Below, one piece after another: positions 5,205-63,096 of a stretch of DNA of 64,000 nucleotides. The DNA is from Alphaproteobacteria bacterium. Its GTDB lineage: Bacteria > Pseudomonadota > Alphaproteobacteria > JAQWUY01. The stretch is from assembly GCA_029250225.1 (NCBI GenBank), contig JAQWUY010000010.1, positions 1-64,000 on the forward strand. The letters are read 5' to 3'. Under the pieces are notes generated by a model. That model did not search any database, was not told where the DNA came from, and worked only from the letters and a program-made list of their open reading frames with translations. The position numbers and the translations under genes were made by a program. The first letter of the stretch is position 1, and each line of letters opens with the position of its first letter.

Positions 5205-6143
5205 TTAATTGTTCTCGATACAATCCCATATATTAGATTCAATTTTCAAGTTATATAATTTATTACATTCTTGAATACAGGTTGGGCTAGTGACATTAAT
5301 TTCTGTTAAATAATCACCGATTACATCAATTCCAACAAATAGTAATCCTTTTTCTTTTAAATAAGGGGCTATTGTTGAACATATTAGTTTGTCATTTTCG
5401 CTTAAAGATGCCTTTTCGTGTTTTCCCCCAATATGTAAGTTGGCACGAGCTTCACCATCAGCTGGAACTCTGTTAATACATGCCTTGGGTTCGCCATTTA
5501 CAAGGATAATTCTTTTATCCCCATTCCTTACCTGAGGTAAATATTTTTGCACAATGATTGGTTCGCGATTTTTTTCAAAAAACATTGATAATAAAGATGA
5601 TATATTGTCATCGTTTTCTTTGATATGGAAAACTCCATCTCCGCCATTACCGTACAAAGGTTTAATTATTATTTCTTTGTGCTTGGCTCTAAATTCTTTT
5701 ACCATATTTGGCGTTCTAGTAATCATTGTTGGTGCGCAAATATCTTGGTAGTATGTGGTTAATAATTTTTCAGGAGCATTGCGAATAGCACTAGGGTTAT
5801 TAAATATTTTAACTTTATCTTTTACTAAATCTAACAGGTGCGTATTTGTAATGTAACTCATATCAAATGGTGGATCTTGGCGAATCCATATCACATCTAA
5901 ATCATCAAGTTTTACAATTTCAGGCTTTTCCAGCCATTTATAATGATTGCCAACTTCGTATTTTAAATCTAATCTTCGCATATTTGCAAATACATTGCCG
6001 TCTTCGTAGTATAAATCATCTACACCGTAGTGATATAATTCATAACCACGATTAATTGCTTCTAGGGCTAATATAAAACTTGAATCAGATTTTATATTAA
6101 TACTTTCGATAGCATCCATTTGTAATGCGCATTTTTTTGTCAT
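5205..6143 (-). CDS. gshB: Glutathione synthetase
   Basis: This 312-residue protein joins gamma-glutamylcysteine and glycine with ATP. It shows the prokaryotic GshB pattern: N-terminal MDAIESINIKSDSSF with LALEAINRGYEL, the central WIRQDPPFDMSY motif, the ATP-grasp elements PLYGNGGDGVF and QKYLPQVRNGDKRI, and ADGEARANLHIGG. The C-terminal INVTSPTCIQE is the metal/ATP site. I chose the ATG at 6143 because AGGA lies 8 nt upstream; a longer reading frame from 6182 has no ribosome site. It ends the rsmI-yraN-gshB run, a common alphaproteobacterial order, 53 nt past yraN. Confidence 0.95.
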   Translation of the reverse strand: MTKKCALQMDAIESINIKSDSSFILALEAINRGYELYHYGVDDLYYEDGNVFANMRRLDLKYEVGNHYKWLEKPEIVKLDDLDVIWIRQDPPFDMSYITNTHLLDLVKDKVKIFNNPSAIRNAPEKLLTTYYQDICAPTMITRTPNMVKEFRAKHKEIIIKPLYGNGGDGVFHIKENDDNISSLLSMFFEKNREPIIVQKYLPQVRNGDKRIILVNGEPKACINRVPADGEARANLHIGGKHEKASLSENDKLICSTIAPYLKEKGLLFVGIDVIGDYLTEINVTSPTCIQECNKLYNLKIESNIWDCIENN

Positions 6144-6196
6144 TCTAATATTCCTAGTTTTTATGAATGGTAAATATACCATATTTTACAATAAAA

Positions 6197-26770: not shown

Positions 26771-26799
26771 TTGACAAGATAAGAATAATATCCTATTTA
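26771..26799 (+). promoter_or_regulatory. Promoter of lysis cassette with shared 18-bp box
   Basis: TTGACA (26771-26776) and TATTTA (26794-26799) are separated by 17 nt, a near-ideal sigma-70 layout. Between and over the -10 lies ATAAGAATAATATCCTAT (26779-26796). The same box with one change (17 of 18) occurs on the minus strand at 37984-38001 before the capsid gene. The box keeps its sequence although its distance from the -35 differs by 2 nt, so it may be a binding site in its own right. Start of transcription would be near 26806. Confidence 0.72.
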
Positions 26800-26809
26800 T
26801 ATAAACAAT

Positions 26810-26860
26810 AAACACCACAAGTGTATTCAAAATATGGATTCACTTAGTGGTGTTTTTTTT
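26810..26860 (+). terminator. Leader terminator/attenuator before lysis cassette
   Basis: Starting about 4 nt after the expected transcription start, AAACACCAC and GTG (26810-26823) pair with CAC and GTGGTGTTT (26841-26855), with a small AA/TTA bulged section, and T continues to 26860. As an intrinsic terminator it would end transcription after about 55 nt, 56 nt before the first lysis gene. A separate terminator already closes ppa, so this one appears to act on its own promoter: an attenuator, or a very short RNA gene. Confidence 0.75.
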
Positions 26861-26916
26861 ATTTCAAAAAAATTAACAAGTCAAATAGCCTTAACTAACT
26901 AAGGAAGGAATAATTA

Positions 26917-27240
26917 ATGCAAATATTTAATGGAAATATAACATTTGGCACAGATGTAATAACGTGGATAGTATTTATTGAAATACCGATCTTTATTGCA
27001 TTTATGACATACATAATAAAACAAAAAGAGACAATGAATAAGAATATAGATTTAGTAAAAATAAATATGGAAAAAAGATATCGTTATTTAAATGAAAAGA
27101 TAAATAATTATAAATTGGAAGTAGCAAAAAAATACGCTTCGGTTTCATATTTAAAAGACGTAGAAAATCGCTTAACCAATCATTTAATTCGTATAGAAGA
27201 AAAACTAGATAATAAATTAACGAGGTTAGAAAATGAGTAA
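26917..27240 (+). CDS. Phage-type membrane-anchored coiled-coil protein of the lysis cassette
   Basis: This 107-residue protein has an N-terminal segment NITFGTDVITWIVF leading into a transmembrane helix (about residues 12-34), then a charged coiled coil with KLEVAKKYASVSYLKDVENRLTNHL. Proteins with this pattern (membrane helix, then YAS-x-x-YLKDVE-x-RL) accompany endolysin genes in alphaproteobacterial prophages; the recognition is from memory of the pattern, not a search. It overlaps the hydrolase gene by 8 nt. It may be a holin partner or spanin-like protein. A good ribosome site (AAGGAAGGAA) precedes the ATG, partly inside a small CCTTA/TAAGG hairpin. Confidence 0.7.
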   Translation: MQIFNGNITFGTDVITWIVFIEIPIFIAFMTYIIKQKETMNKNIDLVKINMEKRYRYLNEKINNYKLEVAKKYASVSYLKDVENRLTNHLIRIEEKLDNKLTRLENE

Positions 27241-27694
27241 TTTGGATTTATTTATGAAACAAGTTTCTGATAACGAAGAACAACAAAATCATATCGATAT
27301 TATGGCACGAACGATATGGGGTGAAGCAAGAGGCGAAGGATTAAAAGGTATGGAAGCTGTTGGTTTTGTCATAATGAATAGATATAAAATATCGAAAATT
27401 AAAGGTAAATTTTGGTGGGGTAATAACATTAGTGAAATATGTAAAAAGCCTTATCAATTTTCTTGTTGGAATAAAAAAGATGTAAATTACGAAAAATTAA
27501 TTAATTTAACAACTGATGATAAATTATTTACAACAGCAAAAAGAATCGCATCAAAACTAGTTCGTCTTAATAATAATCGTGATATAACAAATTGTGCTGA
27601 CCATTATCATACATTTAATACGAGACCGAATTGGCTTGATGTTGATAAAGTAGTTGCAAATATTGGCAATCATATTTTTTACAAACTATCATAA
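27233..27694 (+). CDS. SleB-type cell wall hydrolase (phage-like endolysin)
   Basis: A 153-residue hydrolase_2/SleB-family protein that would cut glycan strands of peptidoglycan. The core MARTIWGEARGEGLKGMEAVGFVIMNR contains the proposed catalytic glutamate, followed by CKKPYQFSCWN and the C-terminal NCADHYHTFNTRPNW. There is no signal peptide, so export would need a holin; a holin gene follows 17 nt later. GAGG lies 7 nt before the ATG inside the upstream gene. Unlike spore SleB it lacks a peptidoglycan-binding domain, as phage and gene-transfer-agent versions do. Confidence 0.88.
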   Translation: MSNLDLFMKQVSDNEEQQNHIDIMARTIWGEARGEGLKGMEAVGFVIMNRYKISKIKGKFWWGNNISEICKKPYQFSCWNKKDVNYEKLINLTTDDKLFTTAKRIASKLVRLNNNRDITNCADHYHTFNTRPNWLDVDKVVANIGNHIFYKLS

Positions 27695-27711
27695 ACTAGG
27701 GAAAACAAACA

Positions 27712-28158
27712 ATGCTTACAAATATATTGTTAAAAACAGGTTTCCCTATATTAATTGATATAGTTAAAAACACTCTATTAAAAAGTAATGATGAAATAGC
27801 ACAATCTGCGGGTAAACAATTAGATAAAATAACTAAATTACCAACAAATAAAGAATTATTACAATCAATAACAGAAATTGAAAAACGAGATAGTGAAAAA
27901 ATAGGGCAAATAAATACATCACTTCGAACTGAGGTATTATCGCAAGATAAATATGTAAGGCGAATGAGACCTACATTTGGCTATATAATGGCTATTTCTT
28001 GGTTTATACAAATGACAATAATAGCAATATCTGTAATTACTAACCCGCAAATATCAGGGGAAATAATTAGTTCTTTTGCAGAACTTAGTGTTATGTGGTC
28101 GGTTGGATTATCTGTGCTAGGTGTTTATGTTTATAAACGAAGTGGCGAAAAAAAATAA
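27712..28158 (+). CDS. Holin of the three-TM gene-transfer-release type
   Basis: A 148-residue protein with an amphipathic N-terminal half and two to three membrane helices in the second half (about 88-110, 118-142). The stretch INTSLRTEVLSQDKYVRRMRPTFGYIMAISW, with the D-x-YVRR-x-RP core, and the ending GLSVLGVYVYKRS match the family described as holin of 3TMs for gene transfer release (PF11351), named after the Rhodobacter gene transfer agent. It would form pores that release the SleB-type hydrolase. It is the last gene of the cassette. No terminator separates it from pyrD, 37 nt away. Confidence 0.82.
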   Translation: MLTNILLKTGFPILIDIVKNTLLKSNDEIAQSAGKQLDKITKLPTNKELLQSITEIEKRDSEKIGQINTSLRTEVLSQDKYVRRMRPTFGYIMAISWFIQMTIIAISVITNPQISGEIISSFAELSVMWSVGLSVLGVYVYKRSGEKK

Positions 28159-28195
28159 TACTATTAAATAAAAAAATGTGGTATAGAATTAAGCT

Positions 28196-29251
28196 ATGAA
28201 TATAAATAACATTGCACTAAATTTTTTAAAATTAATAACCCCTGAAACTGCTCATAACATTACAATTAAAATGTTAAAAAACGGTATATATTTTAAACCT
28301 TTTTACAAAGACGACAAAATATTAAAAACCGAGCTTTGGGGCAAGAAATTTCCAAATCCAGTTGGTTTATCAGCAGGATTTGATAAAAATGGTGAATGTT
28401 ATAATGCTATGCTAGATTTAGGAATGGGGTTTTGTGAAATTGGTTCCGTAACCCCATTGCCACAACAAGGCAACCCTAAACCACGATTATTTAGATTGCC
28501 AAAAGACGGCGCAGTAATAAATAGGTTTGGATTTAACAATCTAGGCATTGATTATGTATATGAACAATTAAAAAAACCGCGTCGTGGAATTGTAGGAATA
28601 AACCTAGGTAAAAACAAGACCACTGCTGACCCAATAATTGATTTCGTCAAAGGTTGTAAAAAATTATCACCCTTAGCAGATTACTTAGTTATAAATGTTT
28701 CATCACCCAATACACCTGGGTTAAGAACATTACAAGGACAAAAAGAATTAACTGATATATTATCAAATGTTCAAAAAACAAGGGATAAAGAGTGTGGTAA
28801 AAATCCACCACCACTATTAGTAAAAATTGCTCCTGATTTAAATGAACAAGATTTAAATGATATTGCACAAGTTGCGAAAAAATTAAAAATTGATGGTATT
28901 ATTATCTCTAATACCACACTAGATAGACCAAATAATTTACATCATAAAGATACTCTTAATGAAGCCGGTGGTTTATCGGGGAAACCTCTATTTAAAAAAT
29001 CTACTGAAATGCTTGCAAAAATGTATAAACTCACTGACGGGAAAATTCCTTTAATAGGTGTTGGTGGAATATCATCAGGAGAAGAAGCATACGAAAAAAT
29101 ATGTAATGGTGCTTCACTAGTCCAACTCTATTCAGCACTTGTTTATGGTGGTGCTGGATTAATAACAGATATCAAAAAAGATTTAGTAAAAATATTAAAG
29201 CAAAATGGATTTGAAAATATTAGTCAAGCTGTTGGAAGTAAAGTAAAATGA
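28196..29251 (+). CDS. pyrD: Dihydroorotate dehydrogenase (quinone), class 2
   Basis: PyrD oxidises dihydroorotate to orotate in pyrimidine synthesis, passing electrons to quinone. The 351-residue protein has the class 2 N-terminal membrane-contacting helix (about 1-40), NPVGLSAGFDKN, GSVTPLPQQGNPKPRLFRL, the catalytic serine region VINVSSPNTPGLR and the FMN motifs LIGVGGISSGEEAYEKI. It stands 37 nt after the holin and overlaps the following HAD gene by 4 nt. It is ordinary in itself but is embedded between phage-derived sets. Confidence 0.95.
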   Translation: MNINNIALNFLKLITPETAHNITIKMLKNGIYFKPFYKDDKILKTELWGKKFPNPVGLSAGFDKNGECYNAMLDLGMGFCEIGSVTPLPQQGNPKPRLFRLPKDGAVINRFGFNNLGIDYVYEQLKKPRRGIVGINLGKNKTTADPIIDFVKGCKKLSPLADYLVINVSSPNTPGLRTLQGQKELTDILSNVQKTRDKECGKNPPPLLVKIAPDLNEQDLNDIAQVAKKLKIDGIIISNTTLDRPNNLHHKDTLNEAGGLSGKPLFKKSTEMLAKMYKLTDGKIPLIGVGGISSGEEAYEKICNGASLVQLYSALVYGGAGLITDIKKDLVKILKQNGFENISQAVGSKVK

Positions 29252-30060
29252 TAATAAATAATATATCTGAAATAATCCAAAAATATGATACTTTCATACT
29301 CGATCAATGGGGTGTGTTACACAATGGTGGAAATGCATTTGAGCACGCTGTTGAAACACTAAATTTATTAAAAGAAAATAACAAAAAAGTTGTTATATTA
29401 TCTAATTCAGGCAAACAAAAACACAACAGTTATATTAGGTTGTCTGAATCTGGAATAAATCGTGATTTATACCTTGATGTAATGACATCAGGCGAACATA
29501 TGTTACATAATTTTAAAAATGGTATGTTTGACAAATTAGGAAAAAACCCAACTTTTTATGATTGGGATAATGATTTTACGATTATGGAAATTTTAGGTTT
29601 TAAAAACACTGACATTAATACATCTGATTTCATATTATGTTGTGGCGTAGAAAGAGGAGATGCAGAAAAATATATTGAAGATTTAAAAATTGCAAAAGCA
29701 AGAAATCTTGAATTAATCGTTTCTAATCCAGACATAGTAGCAATGAATAAACAAGGCAAATTAAAAGATTGCCCTGGTGCCATTGCGAAATTGTATAAAG
29801 AAATGGGTGGAAAAGTTCATTGGTTTGGAAAACCACAACCAGAAATTTACGAATTATGTTATAAAATGGCTAATGGTTGGAATAATGCTGTTGCTGTTGG
29901 TGATAGCCTTGAACACGATATAAAAGGCGCAATAAAAGCAAATATAGATTCCGTATTTATTACAAGTGGAATACACAAGGAACAAATATCAAAAACAAAT
30001 CTTGATAATGCAATCAAAAAATACGGTCAAAAACCAACATACTCACTAGAATGGTTTTAA
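29248..30060 (+). CDS. HAD-superfamily class IIA hydrolase (alphaproteobacterial NagD-like)
   Basis: A 270-residue phosphatase-like protein of the subgroup largely confined to alphaproteobacteria. Motif I is FILDQWGVLHNG: the nucleophile Asp is kept and the usual second Asp is Trp, as in this subgroup. Motif II is VILSNSGK, and the C-terminal motif is VAVGDSLEHDIKGA. The substrate is unknown. It overlaps pyrD by 4 nt and converges on plsC with 19 nt between, where no terminator is seen. Confidence 0.88.
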   Translation: MIINNISEIIQKYDTFILDQWGVLHNGGNAFEHAVETLNLLKENNKKVVILSNSGKQKHNSYIRLSESGINRDLYLDVMTSGEHMLHNFKNGMFDKLGKNPTFYDWDNDFTIMEILGFKNTDINTSDFILCCGVERGDAEKYIEDLKIAKARNLELIVSNPDIVAMNKQGKLKDCPGAIAKLYKEMGGKVHWFGKPQPEIYELCYKMANGWNNAVAVGDSLEHDIKGAIKANIDSVFITSGIHKEQISKTNLDNAIKKYGQKPTYSLEWF

Positions 30061-30079
30061 AATTTTAATTTAATATATT

Positions 30080-30790
30080 TTATGGTTTTTTAGCTAATCT
30101 ATTACTAGCTGTTTCAATATCTTGTTGTAGTTTTTTCATAAATTGCTCTTTGCTTAAACCTGGTTTTATCTCAGGCAAAAACTCCATTGTGACACGACCT
30201 TTTTTGCCATTCCACAATCCTCTATTCCAATATAAACCTGTATTTAATGCAACTGGTACAACAGGTATATTTAATTCACTATATAATATGTAAACACCCT
30301 GTTTATATGCAGGTTCTGAACCTAATGGGCGACGAGTCCCTTCTGGGAAAATAGATAGAACACAATCTCTTTCATATATTTTTTTTGACTCTTGAATCAT
30401 TTTTATAACTGAATCACGCCCCTTCGAACGATCAATTGGAACCATTCCTGAACGCCAAAAATATAATCCAAGAATTGGTATATACATCAATGTTTTTTTC
30501 ATTATCCAAACACTATTTTGTATAACAGCAGCAAACCAAAATGCTTCATAAGTTGATTGATGTTTTAATACATATATAACTGGATGTTTTGCAATATTTT
30601 CAGTACCAATAATACGGCGTTTAAATCCGAATATAAAATCATTAACATTCACAAATATAATACAATAAATACTGCATATTTTACGCACATATTTCTTCGG
30701 CAAGAATAAAACCCAAAACATAAAAATTAAAAACGCAAAAATAGTTAATGCGAACATAAAGTAATATAAGGATATTTTAAATATTTTCAT
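30080..30790 (-). CDS. plsC: 1-acyl-sn-glycerol-3-phosphate acyltransferase
   Basis: This 236-residue membrane-associated enzyme makes phosphatidic acid. It has an N-terminal membrane helix, the acyltransferase motif KHQSTYEAFWF (the alphaproteobacterial form of HX4D/E), and FPEGTRRPLG. It begins 21 nt downstream of the terminase stop on the same strand with no terminator between, so transcripts of the phage-derived set may run into it. Confidence 0.92.
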   Translation of the reverse strand: MKIFKISLYYFMFALTIFAFLIFMFWVLFLPKKYVRKICSIYCIIFVNVNDFIFGFKRRIIGTENIAKHPVIYVLKHQSTYEAFWFAAVIQNSVWIMKKTLMYIPILGLYFWRSGMVPIDRSKGRDSVIKMIQESKKIYERDCVLSIFPEGTRRPLGSEPAYKQGVYILYSELNIPVVPVALNTGLYWNRGLWNGKKGRVTMEFLPEIKPGLSKEQFMKKLQQDIETASNRLAKKP

Positions 30791-30811
30791 AAAGTTATTT
30801 TTACCACAATA

Positions 30812-32299
30812 TTACAAAACTGTAAAATCATTTTGTGCTTTTGTTGGTTCGACTCCCCTATTCCACTTTGCTAATGTTTTACCGTTATAAGAACGGTTAA
30901 ATCGCGTAGGTTCAAAATTTAAGCAATGAGAAACAGCATCTATCATATCATCTTTATTATTTTTTTCTGTTGGTTTAAAATCGCTTAGTTGTTCTAAAAA
31001 CCCAGTTTTTATAATTTTTTTATTTATATACAAATGTTGAGCATCTAAAACACTATCAAATGCTGACATTATTCGATTATTTTTTATTTGTTTAGATGTA
31101 AAGGGAAGCACTGAAAGTTTTATATTTTTATTATCAAGTATTGATTTTAATAATTCTGGTAAAAATTTTCCCACTCCATTACTTTCTAAATTTATGCTAG
31201 GTAAATAATTCCTTGTCGCAAAATCAATTACACTCAAACATTGCGAACGAGCAGGATCAATATTAGAGTATTTATTAACATCTATTTTTTCTAAATCTTG
31301 TAAATAATATTTACCATCATCACCTGTAAATACACACGCAATAACACTATCATCCCCACCAATGCTTCCATAAGATGGATCCCAAGAAGCAGAAACTGAA
31401 TTCATTTTTACTCCATTAATGGATAATACAAATTTATTATTTTGATAAGATATCTCAATATTTCCATCGTATATTTTCACTTGTGATGAATTTAATCTAG
31501 ACTCACTCGGATTCACACATTGTAATTGCATTTGTGAATTAAACTTTTCTTCTCCATGTCTAATTTTTAATAATTTTATTTCTTTTTCCGAAAATCGTTC
31601 TGCCCAAGACGATTTACCTTTTTCATTTATTATAGGTATTTCAAGGCGATTAAAACCATATAAAAACGGTGATATGTCACCTATTTTATCTTTGCGATAT
31701 ATAGAATAATAATTATGAGGTGTGCCAACATATAACTGCATTCCATTAGGAACTAGAATATAGTCAACTTCTCCTAATCTCTGCCTTAAACTTTCTCTCT
31801 TTGAAGCAGTTGCAGAAGTATTTGGAACTTCTACATCATCACATATTATTATATCTGCTCTACTTCCCGTAATATTTCCAAGTATTCCTTCGGCTGTCAT
31901 TGAAGGGTCTCGTAATTCCATATCACGATTTACAGTAAAACAATTGCCCGCCCATTGTTCTGCTTTTTTAGGCTTTAAGTTTTTAGTTAATTCGTGTCTT
32001 TCAATAATTCTTTTTACAGTTCGCACCATTTTTCTTGCTAAGTCGCTTTCCGCAGATATAACCATAATTCTAATACTGGGATTTAAATATAATACCCAAG
32101 CGCAAAACAATCCAACCATAGTCGATTTACCTGCTCCACGAAATGCCATAAGTAGTGCTTTTTCATTCCCATCTATCCAACTTTTATGTAAAAAAGAAAT
32201 AATTTTTTTATGAATATTTGGGGTAATAAAGTTTTGATTTTTATTCCACATTTCAACAAATTGTAAAAAATTTTTTTGATCTGGTAAAAAATTCCGCAT
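30812..32299 (-). CDS. Phage terminase large subunit (DNA packaging ATPase/nuclease)
   Basis: A 495-residue TerL that would pump DNA into a capsid and cut it. The ATPase has Walker A (MAFRGAGKST, near residue 53), Walker B (DIIICDDVE), and a coupling region near YVGTPHNYYSIY. The C-terminal RNase H-like nuclease keeps its acidic residues: SWDPSYGSIGGDDSV, NLESNGVG and KDDMIDAVSH. So both activities look intact, which argues against simple decay. AAAGGG lies 5 nt before the ATG. It is last in the minus-strand set, as gene 19 is in T7. No small terminase is beside it. Confidence 0.9.
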   Translation of the reverse strand: MRNFLPDQKNFLQFVEMWNKNQNFITPNIHKKIISFLHKSWIDGNEKALLMAFRGAGKSTMVGLFCAWVLYLNPSIRIMVISAESDLARKMVRTVKRIIERHELTKNLKPKKAEQWAGNCFTVNRDMELRDPSMTAEGILGNITGSRADIIICDDVEVPNTSATASKRESLRQRLGEVDYILVPNGMQLYVGTPHNYYSIYRKDKIGDISPFLYGFNRLEIPIINEKGKSSWAERFSEKEIKLLKIRHGEEKFNSQMQLQCVNPSESRLNSSQVKIYDGNIEISYQNNKFVLSINGVKMNSVSASWDPSYGSIGGDDSVIACVFTGDDGKYYLQDLEKIDVNKYSNIDPARSQCLSVIDFATRNYLPSINLESNGVGKFLPELLKSILDNKNIKLSVLPFTSKQIKNNRIMSAFDSVLDAQHLYINKKIIKTGFLEQLSDFKPTEKNNKDDMIDAVSHCLNFEPTRFNRSYNGKTLAKWNRGVEPTKAQNDFTVL

Positions 32300-32330
32300 T
32301 TATGCCCTTTCTTATTATTTATGAGTTTCA

Positions 32331-32363
32331 ATATTTGTAGGCGAAAAAATCACCTACAAATAT
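32331..32363 (-). other. Perfect 11-bp hairpin between fibre-associated gene and terminase
   Basis: ATATTTGTAGG (32331-32341) is exactly complementary to 32353-32363, with an inner GA/TC pair and an A/T-rich loop. On the minus strand it lies 31 nt before the terminase ATG. No T run follows, so it is not a standard terminator; it may be an mRNA processing or stability element. Confidence 0.5.
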
Positions 32364-32375
32364 ATTCTCTAACAA

Positions 32376-32669
32376 TTATGATTTAGGATATTTATTTTTT
32401 ATTTCTATTATTTTATCTTTCCATTTAGTCGTACCGTTAACTAAATCATGATAAATCAAATCTAGTTGTTCTGATATTTCAGGATATTCAGCTTGTCTTT
32501 CTTCTATGTAATTTATTTCTGTTATAGGTTTGACAATTTTACCGTTTTTTATTGTATCTCCTATATTGGCATCAGCTAAATAACCAACTGCCGAAATACC
32601 TCCTTGGACTTCACCAACCACAATATTTTCAACTATATTATTTTTAATAATTAAATATTTATCACTCAT
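32376..32669 (-). CDS. Small phage tail-fibre-associated protein
   Basis: A 97-residue protein whose C-terminal half (RQAEYPEISEQLDLIYHD, then GTTKWKDKI and IKNKYPK) matches a motif common in small proteins encoded after tail-fibre genes in many phages (YPxIxxQLDxxxxD...W...I..IKxxYPK). The N-terminal half (YLIIKNNIVENIVVGE) is short and beta-like. Role in fibre assembly is inferred from position. Its ATG overlaps the fibre stop (TAATG). Confidence 0.7.
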   Translation of the reverse strand: MSDKYLIIKNNIVENIVVGEVQGGISAVGYLADANIGDTIKNGKIVKPITEINYIEERQAEYPEISEQLDLIYHDLVNGTTKWKDKIIEIKNKYPKS

Positions 32670-34030
32670 TATACATAATCAACTTCTATATATCCATTTG
32701 AACCCGTATTGCCGTTGAAACCATATCCCAGATGACCATTATCATCTTTTCCTGCTAAACCACCAGCACCTACTATATAATCAAATACATCACCCGATGA
32801 TAATACTTTTATAGCTTTAACTAAACCACCGTTTCTACCGTCTTGAGCGTATTTAAAATCATGTGATCCACCACCAGCACCATTACCGCCACCGCCGGCT
32901 ATAACCATTCCTCCAGAACCAGAAGCTCCTGTTTGACCAGCTGTATCATTTTCATATGCTCCTTTACCACCTCGACCACCATAAGCAGTAATGTGTAAAG
33001 AATAGATTGATGTATTGCCACCTCGACCACCGTGATTTCTTCTTTGTCTTTTCCAGCCGTGACCACCACCGCCGCCGCCGCCGGCAAGTTTAAATAAAAC
33101 TTTTCCAGCAGGTAATTCTATATGATTTTTATTACTAGGCATCGTTCCGGTTGTTGATGATGATTGATCTGCTAACGACCAAACATTCGAAGGATTAATA
33201 TTGTTAGGTAGTGAACCATCTGTATTTCGCACAAAAAACTTACCACTTTTTTGAGTAAATATTGATGTAGGTAAAGCTCCGCTTATACCCGAAATATCTG
33301 CTTTATTTTTAAAATCTTCATTAGAGACATTTGATAAATTTTTTCCTGCATAAATTTCATTCATTTCATCAACTAAGCCAGAAACCAACAATTTACTTTT
33401 AAAATCTTCATTAGAGACATTTGATAAATTTTTTCCTGCATAAATTTCATTCATTTCATTGTATTTAGTTTCTAATATTCTACGATTTCGCGTTGTAATA
33501 TCAGCATTATTTTTAGCATCGATAGAAAATCTCTCGGCCTGTAAAGTAGATTGAGATAAATCTTTATAAATTTTTGTTCTACCTAAACTATCAAAACCAA
33601 GTATACTATTTGATCGTTTTTTTGCAGTTGGTAAAATCATATTCATATCATCATCTGATAAAGGTGTACGAATACTATCCTTAGAATATCTACCTACTTG
33701 TTGTAATAACATTATAATTCTATCAAATTCTTCATTAATTACACTGGCACGAAAATCCTCGTTTTCTCTGAATATAGTTTGACGATTATAAGTCATATGA
33801 CGATAAATCGTAATACGAGTTCCAACACTAAGTGGTTGTGATAAATCAATATGTCCGCCAATTGTTTCTTTTAATATTGTGACTGTATAATTATTAAGCT
33901 CAATACCATCTGATGTAATAACTTTAATATCTTGTTTATTTAAAACAGGAAAATTAAACTCAAACCTTGTTTTTTGCTCATCACCATCATTAATAGTATA
34001 ATTTACTCTTGGGTTTAATCTTGATGTCAT
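32669..34030 (-). CDS. T7-like tail fibre with glycine-rich receptor-binding end
   Basis: A 453-residue fibre. The N-terminal 120 residues (NPRVNYTINDGDEQKTRFEFNF, then TIYRHMTYNRQTIF) match the T7 gp17 N-terminal domain that joins fibre to tail. The middle (about 120-230) is helical and holds a duplicated segment (MNEIYAGKNLSNVSNEDFK twice, 30 residues apart). The C-terminal 140 residues are very glycine-rich (AGGGGGGGHG, GGRGGKGAY, VGAGGLAG, GNTGSNGYIEVDYV), like glycine-rich adhesin tips. This end would decide which cells are recognised. The DNA holds a 63-bp perfect repeat and a GGC triplet run. Confidence 0.88.
   Translation of the reverse strand: MTSRLNPRVNYTINDGDEQKTRFEFNFPVLNKQDIKVITSDGIELNNYTVTILKETIGGHIDLSQPLSVGTRITIYRHMTYNRQTIFRENEDFRASVINEEFDRIIMLLQQVGRYSKDSIRTPLSDDDMNMILPTAKKRSNSILGFDSLGRTKIYKDLSQSTLQAERFSIDAKNNADITTRNRRILETKYNEMNEIYAGKNLSNVSNEDFKSKLLVSGLVDEMNEIYAGKNLSNVSNEDFKNKADISGISGALPTSIFTQKSGKFFVRNTDGSLPNNINPSNVWSLADQSSSTTGTMPSNKNHIELPAGKVLFKLAGGGGGGGHGWKRQRRNHGGRGGNTSIYSLHITAYGGRGGKGAYENDTAGQTGASGSGGMVIAGGGGNGAGGGSHDFKYAQDGRNGGLVKAIKVLSSGDVFDYIVGAGGLAGKDDNGHLGYGFNGNTGSNGYIEVDYV
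33307..33369. repeat. 63-bp direct repeat, copy nearer the fibre C-terminus
   Basis: Identical over 63 bp to 33397-33459. The repeat period is 90 bp, which is in frame (30 codons). It encodes the second MNEIYAGKNLSNVSNEDF copy in the tail fibre. Confidence 0.95.
33397..33459. repeat. 63-bp direct repeat, copy nearer the fibre N-terminus
   Basis: Partner of 33307-33369, identical over 63 bp. Perfect DNA identity, not only protein identity, points to a recent or actively maintained duplication. Recombination between copies would remove or add 30 residues without shifting the frame. Confidence 0.95.
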
Positions 34031-34362
34031 TATTTACCATCACTCATTTTTTTTACAGTTTTAGCGAATAAATTAATTCTATTTAATATATTACCGCCAC
34101 TACCTGCTCGATTGTAAAAAGGTTGTTTTATAAATTTATTTATTTTACCTAATTGCCTATTATAGGTTCTGCCTGTGTAACCATCGGCATATTGCCTAGC
34201 ACGGCGAAAGGCAAGATTTCGCCTAACTTCTTGTTTTTGTTCTCTATATTTTTTTTCATTTAATATATTTTGTTTTTTTATTTCTCTATCATTTCGATCT
34301 TCTTGCCTATCCATTTCATCATATTGAAGTGCAAGTGTTATCATTGGTAATGCTTCTGCCAT
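34030..34362 (-). CDS. Small basic protein of the structural set (internal virion protein candidate)
   Basis: I do not recognise this 110-residue basic protein by motif. It has an acidic then strongly basic helical N-terminal half (EMDRQEDRNDREIKKQN, then EQKQEVRRNLAFRRARQ) and no membrane segment. It lies between the gp12-like and fibre genes, where T7-like phages place internal core proteins, and its stop abuts the fibre start. It may be a short internal virion protein or what is left of that block. Confidence 0.6.
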   Translation of the reverse strand: MAEALPMITLALQYDEMDRQEDRNDREIKKQNILNEKKYREQKQEVRRNLAFRRARQYADGYTGRTYNRQLGKINKFIKQPFYNRAGSGGNILNRINLFAKTVKKMSDGK

Positions 34363-34412
34363 TTTTTAATTCCTTTCTATTAAATTATTTAAAAAATCTA
34401 TATATTATTTCT

Positions 34413-36050
34413 TTAATTAATCGAAACATCTGTTTTAATTGATAATATTGTAATTGGTAATGGACTATCACCTGATATATTCCACAAACTATCGCTACTA
34501 TAATTTTGCCAACCTAGTATACTGATTGATTTATCACCGCTAAACAAAGAAATTGGTTTATTTAAAATTCCCTGTCCGAATTTTTGAAAAGATAATGTAT
34601 TTGTTCTACCGCCAACCTCAATTTTTAATGATGCAGTATTCTTTAATCGGATTGTAATATTGCGAATTCTTATTTTTCTGCCTGTTTGTTCACTAGATAA
34701 AGGTAATGATTTAATTGTATGTTTATATTTATAACCCAAGAATATTTTGTTAGCTTTATTATTTAAATCAATGATTCCATTATTAACTACAACTTCTTTG
34801 TGTAAAATATTATCAGCAACTAACATTGCTTTTTTACCATTAAAGGTATCAAAACCACTAAATTGAAAAGCTGGTTCTTCTGTTTTTTTTATAATACAGC
34901 AATCCATTAATACCTCTTTTGAAAAAACCTCTAAGAAATATTGCTCTGCTCTTTTCACAACAGTGTAAATGTAATCTTTATTAGTTCCAACACTTATATA
35001 TTGTCCATCTGTTTCATATGATGACCACGCTGAAACACCTTCAACATAATCATTATTTAAAACAGCCATAGTTCCATCTTTTTTGACACAAAATAACCTA
35101 TTATGTTTGAAACTAAATGCAATATCAGTAATATCTTTTGTCAAATGCTTTGATATCGATACAATTGGACAAGCCTTATAATTTAAAGACATATTTTCGT
35201 TTTGTTTAAAAGAATAAATATTATTACAATCTGAATTTACAAATAAAACTTCATCTTTTGTATCAACTACATTAATATTTGAATTTCTTGGTGAACCTAT
35301 CGTAGTATATTTTTTCGCTAAAATTTTATTTGGCGTTATTGGGCTACCCTCAATAATCCATTCACCAGAATTTGTAAATAATATTAAATAAGAACTACAA
35401 TACAAATTAGATATAAAATCATTACCCGTTGATAATAATTTAATATCTATTCCTTCATCATCTAAACTTTCTCCTAACGAAAAATCACTTTCTGAACCAG
35501 ATCTAGAAAACCATATACGATTAGGATGCTCCTTTGTACCAGCAATAACTATACGACCTTGGAAAAAACCTATAGTTTTTGGATAACCACTTGAAGAATT
35601 AAATAAATTATCTTCAAATCCTGAAAAATTAGTATCTTCTATGGAAAAAATATTATCTTGATAAGATATTCTTTTTATTGGATAATCACCAGAACAAATC
35701 CATAATGAATTATTGTTTTCACTAAAAAATAAATTTTTCAATTTTGATTTAGGAAAAGGAGTAATAAGTTGCGTTATTTTACTTTTCCCCTTGTATATAT
35801 CAACTTTTCTATCGTGAAAAACAGCCAAATAATCATCTTCTTGTACAGAAAAATTAATTAATCTTGCCTCGGTTGGTAATTCACCCAATAAAACAGAACC
35901 ACTTCTTCTAATTACACCACCTGTATTTAAAACATTAACATTTATTAATTTACTTGCTCCATTATTATAAGTTTCTAAATCACCACGGCCATATAAATCA
36001 GATGTTACTTCACCGCTGGTAAATGATGTTTTTAAAATTATTTGTTTCAT
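34413..36050 (-). CDS. Podovirus tail nozzle/stabilisation protein (T7 gp12-like)
   Basis: A 545-residue beta-rich protein beginning KTSFTSGEVTSDLYGRGDLETYNNGASKLINVN, followed by TGGVIRRSG, a start typical of podovirus head-stabilisation or tail tubular B proteins (SxGExSPxLxGRxDLxxYxxGxxxxxNxxxxxxGGxxRRPG). The middle holds YPKTIGFFQGRIVIAGTKEHPNRIWFSRSG, another hallmark, and GEWIIEGSPITP. It would form the tail nozzle below the gp11-like adaptor. Start overlaps the upstream gene by 4 nt. Full length, no disruption. Confidence 0.87.
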   Translation of the reverse strand: MKQIILKTSFTSGEVTSDLYGRGDLETYNNGASKLINVNVLNTGGVIRRSGSVLLGELPTEARLINFSVQEDDYLAVFHDRKVDIYKGKSKITQLITPFPKSKLKNLFFSENNNSLWICSGDYPIKRISYQDNIFSIEDTNFSGFEDNLFNSSSGYPKTIGFFQGRIVIAGTKEHPNRIWFSRSGSESDFSLGESLDDEGIDIKLLSTGNDFISNLYCSSYLILFTNSGEWIIEGSPITPNKILAKKYTTIGSPRNSNINVVDTKDEVLFVNSDCNNIYSFKQNENMSLNYKACPIVSISKHLTKDITDIAFSFKHNRLFCVKKDGTMAVLNNDYVEGVSAWSSYETDGQYISVGTNKDYIYTVVKRAEQYFLEVFSKEVLMDCCIIKKTEEPAFQFSGFDTFNGKKAMLVADNILHKEVVVNNGIIDLNNKANKIFLGYKYKHTIKSLPLSSEQTGRKIRIRNITIRLKNTASLKIEVGGRTNTLSFQKFGQGILNKPISLFSGDKSISILGWQNYSSDSLWNISGDSPLPITILSIKTDVSIN

Positions 36051-36592
36051 AATCTAACATCCGTTAAAATATTGAAATCAAGATTGGTATTCATTTCCTG
36101 AGATGCATCAACAAGTCTAGCTTGCTTGAATTCATTTTCATATCTTCTAAATAAAAATTCTGTTCTTGTTGTACTATCTGTTAAAGGCAAACATATTTCA
36201 GCACATATTCTAAAAACTAATACATTGTCAAAATAAGGCGGGAAATTTTCTTCCTCTGGACGGAAAATATAATCGACTTCAATATTTTGTGTTGTTGTAA
36301 TTAAAATATTATTATGTATTTGGTATTGATTAGCATTTACTTTTAATATTCTTAGACAATCTGCTGGCAATGAAAAATTATATAACCCTTTATCATCAAC
36401 ATTTAATAATTGTAATCTTTTTGTTTTTATTGCAAATCGCCATTGATACGATGATAATAATCCATCGCGTATACCATCATAACTTTCTTTTAGAACCATT
36501 GCCTCAGATGTATTTTCATTAAATCCTTGGATTGGTGTTACACCTATACTTACTAAAGCACGATTTACTAAATCAATTTTATTTTTTGCCAT
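36047..36592 (-). CDS. Podovirus tail adaptor (T7 gp11-like tail tubular protein A)
   Basis: A 181-residue head-to-tail adaptor: NKIDLVNRALVSIGVTPIQGFNENTSEAMVLKESYDGIRDGLLSSYQWRFA is the typical gp11-like start (N-x-AL-x-x-LG...A...Y...RD-x-LLxxxxWxFA). The FSLPADCLRIL and IEVDYIFRP segments also fit. I chose the ATG at 36592 (MAKNK), which gives 6 nt to AAGGA; an ATG one codon earlier is possible. It follows a strong terminator after the decoration gene, just as T7 gene 11 follows the T-phi terminator. Confidence 0.86.
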   Translation of the reverse strand: MAKNKIDLVNRALVSIGVTPIQGFNENTSEAMVLKESYDGIRDGLLSSYQWRFAIKTKRLQLLNVDDKGLYNFSLPADCLRILKVNANQYQIHNNILITTTQNIEVDYIFRPEEENFPPYFDNVLVFRICAEICLPLTDSTTRTEFLFRRYENEFKQARLVDASQEMNTNLDFNILTDVRL

Positions 36593-36605
36593 CATTATTC
36601 CTTTC

Positions 36606-36635
36606 AAAAAAAAGCCCCCGAATGATTACGGGGGC
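36606..36635 (-). terminator. Strong terminator between decoration protein and gp11-like gene
   Basis: A seven-pair all-GC stem (36614-36620 with 36629-36635) with an 8-nt loop is followed on the minus strand by eight T. It lies 25 nt past the decoration stop and before the tail genes. In a genome this AT-rich such a stem stands out. It would give high capsid and decoration output and lower tail and terminase output by readthrough. Confidence 0.92.
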
Positions 36636-36660
36636 AAGTTTATTAATAATTAATGTATAA

Positions 36661-36918
36661 TTAATCTGTGTCAGATACCGGCAATGCAAGCGGATCTTTA
36701 GTATCAACAACACCATTATCATTTGTTGCAACAGATACAAAACCAACTTTATCAAGTGCTGAAACAATAATCATATCACCTACACGAAGCATTTCATTAG
36801 CACTGTTTAGGTAACCTTGTGTATCAACATCATCAATATTATCAGTTGTTTTTAAATGCCATAATGTAAAACCATTTGCATATGCTAATACTGATAAATC
36901 TGTAATTTTAAACGCCAT
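36661..36918 (-). CDS. Phage head decoration/stabilisation protein
   Basis: An 85-residue protein beginning MAFKITDLSVLAYANGFTLWHLKT, then YLNSANEMLRVGDMIIVSA. This compact beta-rich pattern is found next to capsid genes in alphaproteobacterial prophages; I recognise the pattern but cannot assign a family name with certainty. It follows the capsid gene by 11 nt, has a good AGGAGG site, and is followed by a terminator. Role as capsid surface or head-stabilising protein is inferred. Confidence 0.72.
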   Translation of the reverse strand: MAFKITDLSVLAYANGFTLWHLKTTDNIDDVDTQGYLNSANEMLRVGDMIIVSALDKVGFVSVATNDNGVVDTKDPLALPVSDTD

Positions 36919-36929
36919 ATTTTACCTCC

Positions 36930-37769
36930 TTACTCTGCACATTCCATTTTAACAATACCATCGGTATCAATCACACCGGCACCTTGGCTCATCATATTAT
37001 TGATAAAGAAAGATGCACGGTCACCGTGCCACGAAACATCAGTTTTTACATTACTACCTGATGCATGAGCAATAGAATTCTTGTGATACCAGTAACATTG
37101 TCTTGCTCCACTCTTAAGTGTTAAACCACTGTGTGGCAACCATAATGTTCCTAACCACCTTTTAGCTTGCGTTGTCTTCCAAGGTAAATCTTCTTTCCCA
37201 ATGTATTCAGAATTTGCAAATTCTTTTATTTCCATTAGATCAGACCACTGCTTCCAACCAACAATCGCATACCTTTCACCATCATCAGCAACATCTTTTT
37301 CGCCTAATTTTTCAAATGCTGATAATACTTTTTGTTTTGTTAAACCTTCTGATGATTTATATCCTGTTTTATTTACAGTAGTTGTATCAATCGATGCATT
37401 ACTATCAAGTGCATTAATTATAAGTTCATCAGTTTTACGACCTAATGCATATGCACCCGCATTTGCAACTACCCTTTTTTCATCGTGGTTTATTTTTAAT
37501 TCATCTAATTTATCTAACCAATCACCTGCATAGTAATCATACAAAGATATTTCAATCGGTGTATGATTAATATTCATTACTGGAACTTGTCCATTACGAG
37601 ATTTAATCCCCGCAGAACCCTTGCCAACGGCTTGAAAAGTTGTTGATGAACCTCTTACATTATTACGCGTGCGAACTGTTGTTCTTAGTTTAGAACCTGT
37701 GCGTTGATACGCCTGATGTACTTCTGCTTCAAAAGAGCGAATAAACGATAATTCAAGATTTTTACTCAT
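36930..37769 (-). CDS. Phage major capsid protein
   Basis: A 279-residue protein first in the structural operon. Features include an N-terminal FIRSFEAEVHQAYQRTGSKLRTTVRTRNNV, a segment FQAVGKGSAGIKSRNGQVPVMNINHTPIEISLYDYYAGDWLDKLDELKINHDEKRVVANAGAYALGRKTDELIINAL (E-loop to spine-helix like), and an A-domain-like C-terminal end (SWHGDRASFFINNMMSQGAGVIDTDGI). This layout is that of small HK97-fold capsids of podoviruses from alphaproteobacteria. No protease or scaffold gene adjoins it. AAAGGA lies 8 nt before the ATG. The first-gene position and downstream terminator fit high expression. Confidence 0.82.
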   Translation of the reverse strand: MSKNLELSFIRSFEAEVHQAYQRTGSKLRTTVRTRNNVRGSSTTFQAVGKGSAGIKSRNGQVPVMNINHTPIEISLYDYYAGDWLDKLDELKINHDEKRVVANAGAYALGRKTDELIINALDSNASIDTTTVNKTGYKSSEGLTKQKVLSAFEKLGEKDVADDGERYAIVGWKQWSDLMEIKEFANSEYIGKEDLPWKTTQAKRWLGTLWLPHSGLTLKSGARQCYWYHKNSIAHASGSNVKTDVSWHGDRASFFINNMMSQGAGVIDTDGIVKMECAE

Positions 37770-37830
37770 TTCTTAAATCCTTTCTTAATTATTATAATTC
37801 TTAGAGAATAAATATTTTGATTACCCAAAT

Positions 37831-37859
37831 AAAAAAACACCCAGTAAAAATGGATGTTT
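37831..37859 (-). terminator. Leader terminator/attenuator before capsid gene
   Basis: On the minus strand AAACATCCA pairs with TGGGTGTTT (one G-T wobble) around a 7-nt loop, followed by more T. It lies 61 nt before the capsid ATG and about 113 nt after the presumed transcription start. On the plus strand the wobble becomes a C-A mismatch and no T run follows, so it is directed at capsid transcription. Its end, GGGTGTTTTTTTATTT, resembles the lysis leader terminator GTGGTGTTTTTTTTATTT. Confidence 0.72.
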
Positions 37860-37978
37860 AAAAAAGGTCAATAATATTTATGTAAAGACTATGGGCTGTA
37901 AAAGTTATCCATAAAAAACATTTAAATGATTAAAATATAATATATTTTAGATACACCTTCTGCATGTTTTCAAAATAT

Positions 37979-38007
37979 GTTATATAGGATTTTATTCTTA
38001 TTGTCAA
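37979..38007 (-). promoter_or_regulatory. Promoter of capsid operon with shared 18-bp box
   Basis: Minus-strand TTGACA (38002-38007) and TATAAC (37979-37984) are 17 nt apart. Right after the -35 comes ATAAGAATAAAATCCTAT (37984-38001), 17 of 18 bases identical to the box in the lysis promoter at 26779-26796. The transcript would carry a leader of about 200 nt with a terminator hairpin before the capsid ATG. Confidence 0.72.
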
Positions 38008-38015
38008 TAGAAAAG

Positions 38016-38324
38016 TTAATCTTTGCGGTAAAAATATCTCTTCTGATGAAAAAATACTCTATGGAATAATCGTATTGAAATTATTGCCATAAACAAATAA
38101 TAAATATTATATTCATATATGTAAGGACTTATAATTAATGATTTTTCTTGCGCAACTAGAATATTTGTTCCATCAATTATTAAATAGATAAATACAAATA
38201 ATAAAAAATTTAAAAATGAATTATTTGTTAAGAAAGATTCATTCTTAAATGCACCTGCAAATAAAAGAGAGTAAAATAAAGAAGTACTTAAATACCAAAA
38301 GTTTTGTTGTAAAAATTCAACCAT
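38016..38324 (-). CDS. Hypothetical small membrane protein next to capsid promoter
   Basis: I do not recognise this 102-residue protein. It has three likely transmembrane segments (about residues 8-25, 35-52 and 70-85) and a basic tail (HRVFFHQKRYFYRKD). It ends 8 nt before the capsid promoter -35 on the same strand, so it could belong to the phage-derived element (for example a second holin-like protein) or be an unrelated gene. There is no strong ribosome site in view. Confidence 0.5.
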   Translation of the reverse strand: MVEFLQQNFWYLSTSLFYSLLFAGAFKNESFLTNNSFLNFLLFVFIYLIIDGTNILVAQEKSLIISPYIYEYNIYYLFMAIISIRLFHRVFFHQKRYFYRKD

Positions 38325-60947: not shown

Positions 60948-61531
60948 TAACATTCTCCATCAAAGTACATTTTTAATCTTATCATCTCTATATTTAGTAT
61001 ATCTGATATACCACACTTTTTTATTCCTGCATAGGTGACATTTTCACTAGCAAAAACTTTGTTTAATTCCTGTTTTTTCAAAAAAGTGTAAAATGGTAAT
61101 TCAAACATTCTACACATACCAGAAATTTTATTTTTCCCATCACTGTCATCACTAGCACAAATAACCAAAGCGCATTTTTGTGACTTTAATAGTTCTTTTA
61201 CCTTCTCAAAACCATTTATTGCCATACCTGAACGCCTTGCCAAGGAAATTATTTCAAAAATTCTTTTTCTTAACATAACTTCACAGGTATTTACCAAGTC
61301 TTGTTTTACAACAACCGATTTCTTAGCCGACTTAGAAAAAATATTCTTTTCGACAGCTTGTGTAATTAATTCTTTGTTACAATCAACCCACATTCCTCGA
61401 CCTGGTAAATTTCCCTTTATATCAACAACAACATTATTATTAGGGTCAACAACAAACCTAATCATATGTTTTTTAAGTTTAATATTACGACTTACAATAC
61501 AACAGCGTTTTAATTCCTCTGTTTTTTTCAT
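60947..61531 (-). CDS. ylxR: YlxR (DUF448) protein fused to an L7Ae-like domain
   Basis: A 194-residue RNA-binding protein. Residues 1-90 are YlxR (RCCIVSRNIKLKKHMIRFV, GNLPGRGMWVDCNKE). Residues about 95-190 resemble an L7Ae-type domain (ISLARRSGMAINGFEKVKELLKSQKCALVICASDDSDG). This fusion is the standard alphaproteobacterial form between nusA and infB. The exact role is unclear; one idea is regulation through RNase P or ribosome assembly. Confidence 0.9.
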   Translation of the reverse strand: MKKTEELKRCCIVSRNIKLKKHMIRFVVDPNNNVVVDIKGNLPGRGMWVDCNKELITQAVEKNIFSKSAKKSVVVKQDLVNTCEVMLRKRIFEIISLARRSGMAINGFEKVKELLKSQKCALVICASDDSDGKNKISGMCRMFELPFYTFLKKQELNKVFASENVTYAGIKKCGISDILNIEMIRLKMYFDGEC

Positions 61532-61569
61532 ATTTTTTCCTAAATAATAATATTTAGTTAGAACATAAA

Positions 61570-63096
61570 CTATTCTTCGCCTTGCTCGTCCTCGTCAAAC
61601 CAACCAGCACTTTGTCTTGCTTGCAATATAATATTAGCAGATTCATCTTCTGTAATACCTAGTTCAGCCAAGAACTCAGTAAGTTCATCTGATGATAAGT
61701 CAGCTAAATCATCTAGTGTTTTAATATCATTTTCTGCTAGCTTAACAATAGCAATACCGCCACCTAAGAAATCAACAAGATCTTGCTCAACATTTAATTC
61801 ATTAATTGTTTTTTCAACTTGTTTAGTTTCATTTTCTATGTGTTTTTTAGCATTTTCTTGTAACGATTTAGCTGTTGCTTCATTAATGCCTTCTATTTCC
61901 ATTAATTCTTCAACTGTTATTACAGCAAATTCTTCGACAGAAGTGAAACCTTCTTTTACTAATAATAAAGCCATAACATCGTCAACACCAAGTATAGTTT
62001 TAAATATTTCAGAACGAACCTTATATTTTTCTTCATTACGCTTTTGAGATTCTTGCTCGGTAATAAGATCTAGATCCATTTTCAACATTTTACTTGCCAA
62101 ACGAACATTTTGCCCACGGCGTCCAATAGCTAATGATAATTGACTTTCATCTACAACTACTTCTACTTTTTCACTAGCATCATCAATAATTACCTGTGAA
62201 ACTTGTGCTGGTTGTAAAGCTTTTTTCACCAACGATTCAGTAGCTTCAGTGTATTCAATAATATCAATTTTTTCACCTATTAATTCTGATACTACTTGTT
62301 GAACTCTCGAACCACGCATACCAACACACGAACCAACAGGATCCATTCCAGCTTCATTTGCTCGCACACAAATTTTAGCACGACTTCCTGGGTCTCTTGC
62401 AACAGATAATATTTCTATTGCTCCTTCTTCTATTTCAGGAACTTCTTGACGGAATAAAGCCACCAAAAATTCTGGATGCGTTCTAGATACAAAAATCTGC
62501 GGGCCTCTTTGTTCACGGCGAACATCATATAAATATGCACGCACATTATCACCACGGCGTAGGTTTTCTCGTCCTATGCTTTCATCACGAGTCATAACAG
62601 CCTCTGCCATACCTAAGTCTATAGTAATATTATTATATTCAACTCGCTTAACCGTACCTGAAACAATTTCACCTACACGGTCTTTGTAATCATTGTATTG
62701 CTTATCTCGCTCTGCATCACGGACTTTTTGTACGATTACTTGTTTTGCTGTTTGTGCTGCAATTCTTCCGAATTCAATTGGTGGTAATTCATCAATAATG
62801 AATTCACCAACATTTAAATTAGGGTGTGAAACTTTTGCACCTGCAAGAGTAATTTGTGTCATATCATTTTCTATGTCATCTTCGGTAGCAACAATTTCCG
62901 TATATCTTGCTAGGTCAACATAACCATTTTCACGATTAATTTTTGCACGAATATCAAATTCTAACCCGTACTTAGATGTTGCTGCCCTTTGAATTGCTGA
63001 TTCAAGAGCCTCTATGACTTGTGATACTTCAATACCTTTTTCACGAGCAACTGTACTAGCTATCGTAAGCATATCTGTGCGATTTGAATGTTCCAT
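61570..63096 (-). CDS. nusA: Transcription termination/antitermination factor NusA
   Basis: NusA binds RNA polymerase and nascent RNA. The 508-residue protein has the N-terminal domain, an S1 domain (GEIVSGTVKRVEYNNITIDLG), KH domains (DPVGSCVGMRGSRVQQVVSEL and SLAIGRRGQNVRLA), and two C-terminal acidic repeats. The ATG at 63096 has AGGAG 6 nt upstream; TTG at 63102 is an alternative. A NusA-type factor would be the kind needed at the leader terminators noted at 26.8 and 37.8 kb. Confidence 0.97.
   Translation of the reverse strand: MEHSNRTDMLTIASTVAREKGIEVSQVIEALESAIQRAATSKYGLEFDIRAKINRENGYVDLARYTEIVATEDDIENDMTQITLAGAKVSHPNLNVGEFIIDELPPIEFGRIAAQTAKQVIVQKVRDAERDKQYNDYKDRVGEIVSGTVKRVEYNNITIDLGMAEAVMTRDESIGRENLRRGDNVRAYLYDVRREQRGPQIFVSRTHPEFLVALFRQEVPEIEEGAIEILSVARDPGSRAKICVRANEAGMDPVGSCVGMRGSRVQQVVSELIGEKIDIIEYTEATESLVKKALQPAQVSQVIIDDASEKVEVVVDESQLSLAIGRRGQNVRLASKMLKMDLDLITEQESQKRNEEKYKVRSEIFKTILGVDDVMALLLVKEGFTSVEEFAVITVEELMEIEGINEATAKSLQENAKKHIENETKQVEKTINELNVEQDLVDFLGGGIAIVKLAENDIKTLDDLADLSSDELTEFLAELGITEDESANIILQARQSAGWFDEDEQGEE

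Follow-up and report, generated by a model that had tools for sequence, protein, structure and literature searches.

Alphaproteobacterial gene transfer agents (GTAs) with established genes have capsids of the HK97 type, and the Rhodobacter type (RcGTA) had been considered absent from entire orders of the class. RcGTA (Rhodogtaviriformidae) and the RcGTA-like elements of Rhodobacter and Caulobacter are domesticated tailed phages that are inherited vertically, with genes lying partly apart and, in Caulobacter, with the S24 regulator RogA. The Bartonella agent (BaGTA, Bartogtaviriformidae), also alphaproteobacterial, has many genes beyond its main cluster, and it combines an HK97 capsid, as found in RcGTA, with a phage-derived replication origin nearby (PMC9662315). 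The only published podovirus-like agent that we found in open-access full texts is FpGTA of Faecalibacterium prausnitzii, which was presented as the first of its kind in January 2026; it is encoded by two operons (structural/packaging and fibre/lysis) about 125 kb apart, is without replication genes, and gives particles with ~9 kb of DNA and random host fragments of 8.4-8.9 kb (PMC12946183). Here we describe a T7-like set of phage-derived genes in a stretch of 64,000 nucleotides of alphaproteobacterial DNA (the window), which is part of contig C38 of a genome (G000) of 1.197 Mb in 48 contigs with an estimated completeness of 100%. Judging from gene content and evolution, this element would be a podovirus-derived GTA, a reading to which we give a probability of about 0.78.

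The finding is real, with strong comparative evidence for an element that is podovirus-derived, carries the genetic hallmarks of a GTA and is ancient in Rhodospirillales-type Alphaproteobacteria. Of the three refuting conditions named in the first-pass annotation (absence from related strains or random placement there, relaxed selection, a complete prophage elsewhere in the genome), none was borne out when examined. The first-pass annotation had proposed a different kind of GTA, which holds with respect to the Rhodobacter and Bartonella types, but not with respect to podovirus-like agents in general, as FpGTA had already been reported. As far as open-access full texts were searched, this would be the second podovirus-type case and the first in Alphaproteobacteria. 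The element resembles FpGTA in being podovirus-like, in its separated operons and in having no replication genes, whereas FpGTA belongs to Bacillota and the present element is a lineage-wide, pyrD-anchored alphaproteobacterial cluster with PF12236, PF05396 and Phage_capsid_2; the comparison is one of gene content and organisation. RcGTA-like elements differ in having an HK97 capsid and GTA_TIM, and BaGTA in having an HK97 capsid. Neither an HK97 capsid (PF05065) nor GTA_TIM (PF13547) was found in the whole G000 genome.

Within the window, the packaging and structural genes (30812-37769, minus strand) are separated from the lysis genes (26917-28158, plus strand) by pyrD, a HAD hydrolase gene and plsC, and every frame is open, all of which agrees with the first-pass annotation. 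Its description of the structural and packaging set as T7-like was borne out by matches of the major capsid protein (Phage_capsid_2; 36930-37769, minus; PF19821, 3.7e-77), of tail tube proteins A (T7 gp11-like; 36047-36607, minus; phrog_394, 4e-41) and B (T7 gp12-like; 34413-36050, minus; phrog_376, 1.9e-101), and of TerL, the T7-like large terminase that comprises the packaging ATPase and nuclease (30812-32299, minus; phrog_38, 5e-78). TerL keeps its ATPase and nuclease residues, as claimed (GAGKS at 55, ICDD at 152, D307, E372 and D451). Next to the capsid gene lies a conserved small capsid-associated protein (36661-36918, minus; phrog_18004, 8.5e-16), whose family adjoins the capsid gene in 70 genome loci. 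The tail fibre, with a conserved virion-attachment N-terminus and a variable, glycine-rich tip (32669-34030, minus; phrog_1640, 2e-17, residues 8-114), is flanked by a small phage-family protein (32376-32669, minus; phrog_9114, 9e-16) and by a small protein encoded where an internal virion protein would lie (34030-34362, minus). The latter has no family match itself; its positional counterpart in the relative L006 (13638-14111) matches the internal virion protein family phrog_418 (1e-4). The lysis genes encode a spanin-like membrane protein (candidate i-spanin/Rz; 26917-27240, plus; phrog_29007, 2e-24, and weakly the Rz-like spanin phrog_9841, 0.015), an endolysin of the cell-wall hydrolase family Hydrolase_2 (27233-27694, plus; PF07486, 1.3e-17; phrog_938, 1.2e-21) and a holin of a three-transmembrane family named for gene-transfer release (27712-28158, plus; PF11351, GTA_holin_3TM, 2.1e-9). 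The spanin-like family is present in 36 genome loci, mostly between TerL and endolysin. Directly 3' of the lysis genes lies the host gene pyrD (28196-29251, plus). The GC content of the phage genes (lysis genes 27%, structural genes 30%) roughly equals that of their surroundings (window 31%, adjoining host genes 30-35%).

A T7-like head cannot form without a portal and a scaffold. The gene sets had been called intact, which is true of each of these genes but not of the set as a whole, whose portal and scaffold genes lie elsewhere in the genome. With the portal of Pelagibacter phage Hodr we found one intact portal homologue on contig C5 (7118-8587, plus; Head-tail_con, PF12236, 4.6e-72), and a scaffold profile search found one intact gene on contig C11, solitary amid unrelated host genes (~61286-62056, minus; T7 capsid assembly, PF05396, 2.8e-8). 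A single set of virion genes is thus distributed among four loci and three contigs. On C5 the portal operon is headed by a divergent LexA/CI-like S24 regulator (5484-6182, minus; PF00717), followed by genes for 97 and 131 amino acids, the portal (plus), a gene for 78 amino acids and then asd; the earlier statement that there is no repressor is thus correct for the window and not for the genome. The presence of T7-like portal, scaffold and tail tubes (PF12236, PF05396, phrog_376 and phrog_394) and the absence of long-tail genes amount to a podovirus-type organisation, in which the head, packaging, tail and lysis genes expected of a GTA are complete, the small terminase aside.

Capsid, TerL, portal and scaffold are each present in a single copy in G000, and no complete prophage that could supply these parts was found elsewhere in the genome, which has no tyrosine integrase and no HK97 capsid. 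The reported lack of an integrase is confirmed genome-wide for tyrosine integrases (PF00589), a scope that does not extend to serine integrases, which were not searched for, and the reported lack of replication genes is correct for the window and for the cluster content examined. Two features of a temperate prophage, an integrase (in the scope just given) and a contiguous genome at an att site, are therefore missing from G000. As a separate observation, G000 has no PF00589 match of any kind, even XerC/XerD, despite its estimated completeness, and all 14 control genomes have one.

A capsid profile run against one genome per species recovered at least 449 relatives. The best 80, which we examined, are 59-67% identical over the full length and come nearly all from Azospirillum, Thalassospira, Niveispirillum, Roseomonas, Elioraea, Rhodovibrio, Rhodospira, Magnetovibrio, Defluviicoccus and unnamed Rhodospirillales. 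When the proteins of the window and of C5 were mapped onto these relatives, a single cluster emerged with the order S24 (minus), 97 aa, 131 aa, portal, small protein, scaffold, capsid, small protein, tube A, tube B, fibre, TerL, spanin, endolysin, holin and pyrD. From its spread over several families, we infer that this order is ancestral. The divergent S24 gene lies upstream in 30 of the 42 loci with enough sequence, pyrD lies downstream in 25 of 33 testable loci, and lysK is found further upstream in Elioraea, Roseomonas, Defluviicoccus and the metagenome-assembled genome (MAG) 277c_12, so that the cluster occupies one fixed spot in relatives and not random ones. In L006 the cluster is compact (~13 kb), with no replication or integration gene found in it. 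Two neighbours were set aside: in the A. brasilense group, a GGDEF-type gene that separates scaffold from capsid was taken as an insertion outside the set, and lepA, which lies beside the capsid gene in L087 and in the window neighbourhood, was not used as a single-locus occurrence.

The lysis genes of the window have remained next to pyrD, which places the lysis end at the ancestral position. The capsid-to-TerL block would then have moved across pyrD, the HAD hydrolase gene and plsC with inversion; the S24-to-portal block is on C5 and the scaffold on C11. Such splitting is not restricted to G000. In A. lipoferum Sp59b, the half with S24, portal and scaffold and the half from capsid to pyrD are intact and ~277 kb apart on one contig; the two halves are likewise intact in Azospirillum TSH64 (~315 kb apart) and A. 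halopraeferens (~130 kb apart), and the cluster is also dispersed in G088, a genome of 1.1 Mb with 31% GC. Given four loci on three contigs in G000 and halves 130-315 kb apart in Azospirillum, the gene set could not be packaged as a single unit, and repeated splitting with retention of the parts argues for their use in trans.

The cluster has been inherited with its hosts. In a 170-row capsid tree the Thalassospira, Roseomonas/Elioraea and Azospirillaceae groups agree with taxonomy, and capsid, TerL, portal, tube A and scaffold show distances correlated with those of pyrD (r 0.85-0.98), lysK (r 0.81-0.92) and S24 (r 0.73-0.86; Mantel, p 0.001 each). All three markers are in linkage with the locus, and the agreement with taxonomy therefore counts as the more independent line of evidence. 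Vertical inheritance at a fixed place is as expected of a GTA. In a 55-row capsid tree, phages (Hodr and IMG/VR entries) and chromosomal copies fall on opposite sides of a branch with support of 100/96. Hodr and the related IMG/VR phages have homologous portal, scaffold, capsid, small protein and tail tube genes in the same order, but they are free phages, and their terminase and fibre genes are different ones. Of the 34 loci in the phage clade, none carries the TerL, fibre, spanin, 97-aa gene or S24 regulator of the element and only five carry the 131-aa gene; in chromosomal loci the 97-aa and 131-aa genes lead the operon. These results bear on the possibility that the genes belong to a functional temperate or lytic podovirus of these hosts. 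Real phages with a related capsid do exist, that of Hodr being 43% identical, but phage capsids form a clade of their own, the chromosomal clusters that we examined yielded no integrase, polymerase or helicase, and the G000 genes are not contiguous. We regard this as the least probable of all readings, and the dispersal over four loci on three contigs already refutes it for G000.

Host loci of this kind are labelled as viruses in viral databases: the chromosomal capsid clade takes in 47 of the 80 best IMG/VR matches. Among these entries (L086-L132), the capsid of L092 is identical to that of A. rugosum (L016) and those of L108 and L109 to that of Thalassospira (L061), and host genes are carried by L089 (pyrD) and L087 (lepA); with capsids identical to isolate chromosomes or with host genes beside them, they look like host loci filed as viruses. 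A public 'phage' sequence, L003 (MT838907.1, 'Bacteriophage sp.', 5 kb, from human faeces), has portal, scaffold, capsid and tube genes, and its capsid groups with that of G171 (support 100/99); in all probability it was derived from a chromosomal cluster of this type, of which it is a fragment.

Purifying selection on the particle genes, a further GTA hallmark, was assessed from close pairs in three clades (the A. brasilense group, the A. lipoferum group and Thalassospira), where the median dN/dS of cluster genes was 0.05-0.23, as compared with 0.13-0.18 for pyrD. Broad all-pairs estimates (medians 0.27-0.58, in high-GC genomes) were rejected as saturated and codon-biased. For the window's own species we could use L086, an IMG/VR 'virus' that represents a second strain, with 97.46% identity over 7,962 bases and the same order from plsC to past the capsid. 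Between the two, pN/pS was 0.012 for capsid, 0.050 for TerL, 0.054 for tube B, 0.073 for the small protein and 0.17 for tube A, with no stops. In both comparisons the values are far below 1. The ORFs at 32376-32669 and 34030-34362 gave intermediate values (0.45-0.50) from few changes, and the main exception was the fibre, with a pN/pS of 0.70 and one amino-acid change in residues 1-158 against 28 in residues 159-454. This is how a functional adhesin evolves when its attachment end is held constant.

The selection data also bear on the rival readings. According to the first of these, a single prophage has been rearranged and is decaying, and its conservation reflects mere shared ancestry; this was the main alternative in the first-pass annotation. 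The scattering of the genes in G000 and the few other genomes with internal stops or without a portal would fit. However, the intactness of the parts in all four loci speaks against it, as do several lineages that independently split the cluster yet kept every part examined, a window set free of stops, dN/dS far below 1 in three clades besides the window's species, and the retention of the genes in genomes of 0.9-1.5 Mb. The selection values already contradict this rival, and we consider it highly improbable. A second rival holds that the genes serve the host in a different way, for instance in a programmed lysis by which DNA or public goods are set free, and that the capsid is incidental. In favour of it, the lysis trio is retained at the ancestral place; against it, constraint is strongest on capsid, TerL and tail tube and not on the lysis genes, which makes it very unlikely, if marginally less so than decay.

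The main rival, which we regard as unlikely but as the most serious of the alternatives, is a PBSX-like weapon, that is, a domesticated particle that packages host DNA or nothing, delivers none of it, and kills relatives by means of its variable fibre. A diversifying fibre tip on a fixed virion core would be expected for target choice by a killer as much as by a GTA, and retained lysis genes fit as well. Nevertheless, strong purifying selection acts on terminase, portal, scaffold and capsid, parts that would be needless for a tail-only weapon, and no immunity or toxin gene was seen as a member of the conserved cluster.

As searches for relatives at the level of family and order returned G000 alone, distribution was examined in a class-level sample of 385 alphaproteobacterial genomes, drawn evenly. 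A strong capsid match was found in 57 of them (E up to ~1e-95), including genomes of 0.9-1.5 Mb, and a weak, phage-like match in about 35; the portal is present in 56 of the 57. The GTAs of reduced endosymbionts treated by George et al. in 2022 are said to have RcGTA-type head genes. The RcGTA marker GTA_TIM was detected in 36 of the 385 genomes, and none of these has the present capsid, as compared with 5.3 expected (Fisher p 0.002, not corrected for relatedness). In agreement with this, an independent survey (Kogay et al, 2019, PMC6821227, Table 3) gives a frequency of 0% for RcGTA-like clusters in Acetobacterales, Azospirillales, Kiloniellales, Rhodospirillales and Thalassobaculales; Acetobacterales, Azospirillales and Rhodospirillales are groups in which the present element occurs.

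RogA is a LexA-like S24 repressor of the Caulobacter GTA, with homologues reported in Rhodospirillales (PMC9632790). A regulator of the RogA type combines a helix-turn-helix with an S24 domain and represses GTA activators. With its PF00717 match, its domain architecture and its divergent position, the S24 regulator of the cluster is a candidate for this type; 44 of 56 homologues keep the serine motif. AlphaFold models of the 97-aa and 131-aa leading proteins gave no significant match in the PDB. The 97-aa family (L006, 6071-6433) has a predicted four-helix fold with repeated weak matches to the phage 21 Q antiterminator (E ~1), which we treat as a lead and not as a finding; its leading position in the operon would be in keeping with a late-gene antiterminator.

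From the gene parts, their place, inheritance and selection, we infer the following course of expression, assembly, unspecific filling, lysis, fibre binding and uptake. A T7-like short-tailed phage would have become fixed in an ancestral Rhodospirillales-type chromosome, between lysK and the S24 regulator on one side and pyrD on the other, and would then, without replication and integration genes, have been inherited with the chromosome. Upon a host signal, perhaps acting through the RogA-like regulator, a few cells would build small short-tailed heads, which the terminase would fill with pieces of host DNA without choosing phage genes. Holin, endolysin and spanin would lyse the producer cell, and the fibre tip would bind related cells, in which DNA uptake by ComEC-type machinery and recombination could follow. 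ComEC is present in G000, which is compatible with DNA uptake and nothing further.

Several points weigh against the GTA reading. So far the element is known from its genes. No small terminase subunit was identified in the set. T7-type phage terminases cut specific sites, and GTA packaging needs low specificity. For RcGTA, a headful-packaging ancestor has been argued (PMC7947584). The S24 copy of G000 has lost the catalytic serine motif; RogA is likewise said to have lost key residues (PMC9632790). Finally, the portal gene contains internal stops in G135, G281 and G359, as does the capsid gene in G200 and G015, and G205 is without a portal, though G295 of the same genus has one. The stops imply that decay occurs in some lineages, and they suggest recent loss there or, in a few cases, recoding.

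If the GTA reading is correct, domestication has taken place anew, from another type of phage and in lineages without the first, and a GTA can persist after its genes have been scattered. A long-standing observation in Azospirillum may be connected with it. The '10-kb phages' of A. lipoferum (Boyer 2008, described in PMC3899980) are particles that enclose random host DNA of ~10 kb. They came under suspicion of being GTAs, though the genes behind them were never identified, and the authors of 2012 pointed to RcGTA-like prophage genes (PMC3899980). We found that A. lipoferum carries the present cluster (L009 and L206), which makes the cluster a hypothetical candidate source of these particles. 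The particles are reportedly Siphoviridae-like, which would speak against such a link. The puzzle of which genes encode them thereby becomes testable in cultured strains. Taking all this together, we lean, somewhat beyond even odds, towards a wider proposal: a third, independent and very old alphaproteobacterial GTA lineage, derived from a podovirus, that fills orders without RcGTA-like elements (Azospirillales, Acetobacterales, Rhodospirillales and several reduced-genome lineages), that may give rise to the A. lipoferum particles, and whose portal gene is the integration site of parasitic, phage-satellite-like elements.

Beside the cluster lies an ORF for a membrane-like protein of 102 amino acids (38016-38324, minus), whose membership is unassigned; it has no family match and is open and conserved in the second strain, with a pN/pS of 0.058.

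Insertions into the portal gene were seen in two genera. Elements of ~15-16 kb lie in a Niveispirillum MAG (L226, 1824-17760; G394:C60) and in Azospirillum griseum (L227, 2281-17301; G390:C1), at the same portal codon in both (motif GIWQADDDG) and with the 13-bp repeat GCATCTGGCAGGC at both ends. The L226 element encodes a tyrosine integrase, HipA-like and DnaB-like proteins, an HK97 portal, a protease plus capsid, and a TerL, and thus resembles a capsid-forming phage satellite; while integrated, elements of this kind would be predicted to inactivate the GTA. In G051 (C2, 1263357-1280212) the portal is split by ~17 kb at residue 303/297, and in G392 it is split there by contig ends (C52/C152); both are probably insertions of the same kind.

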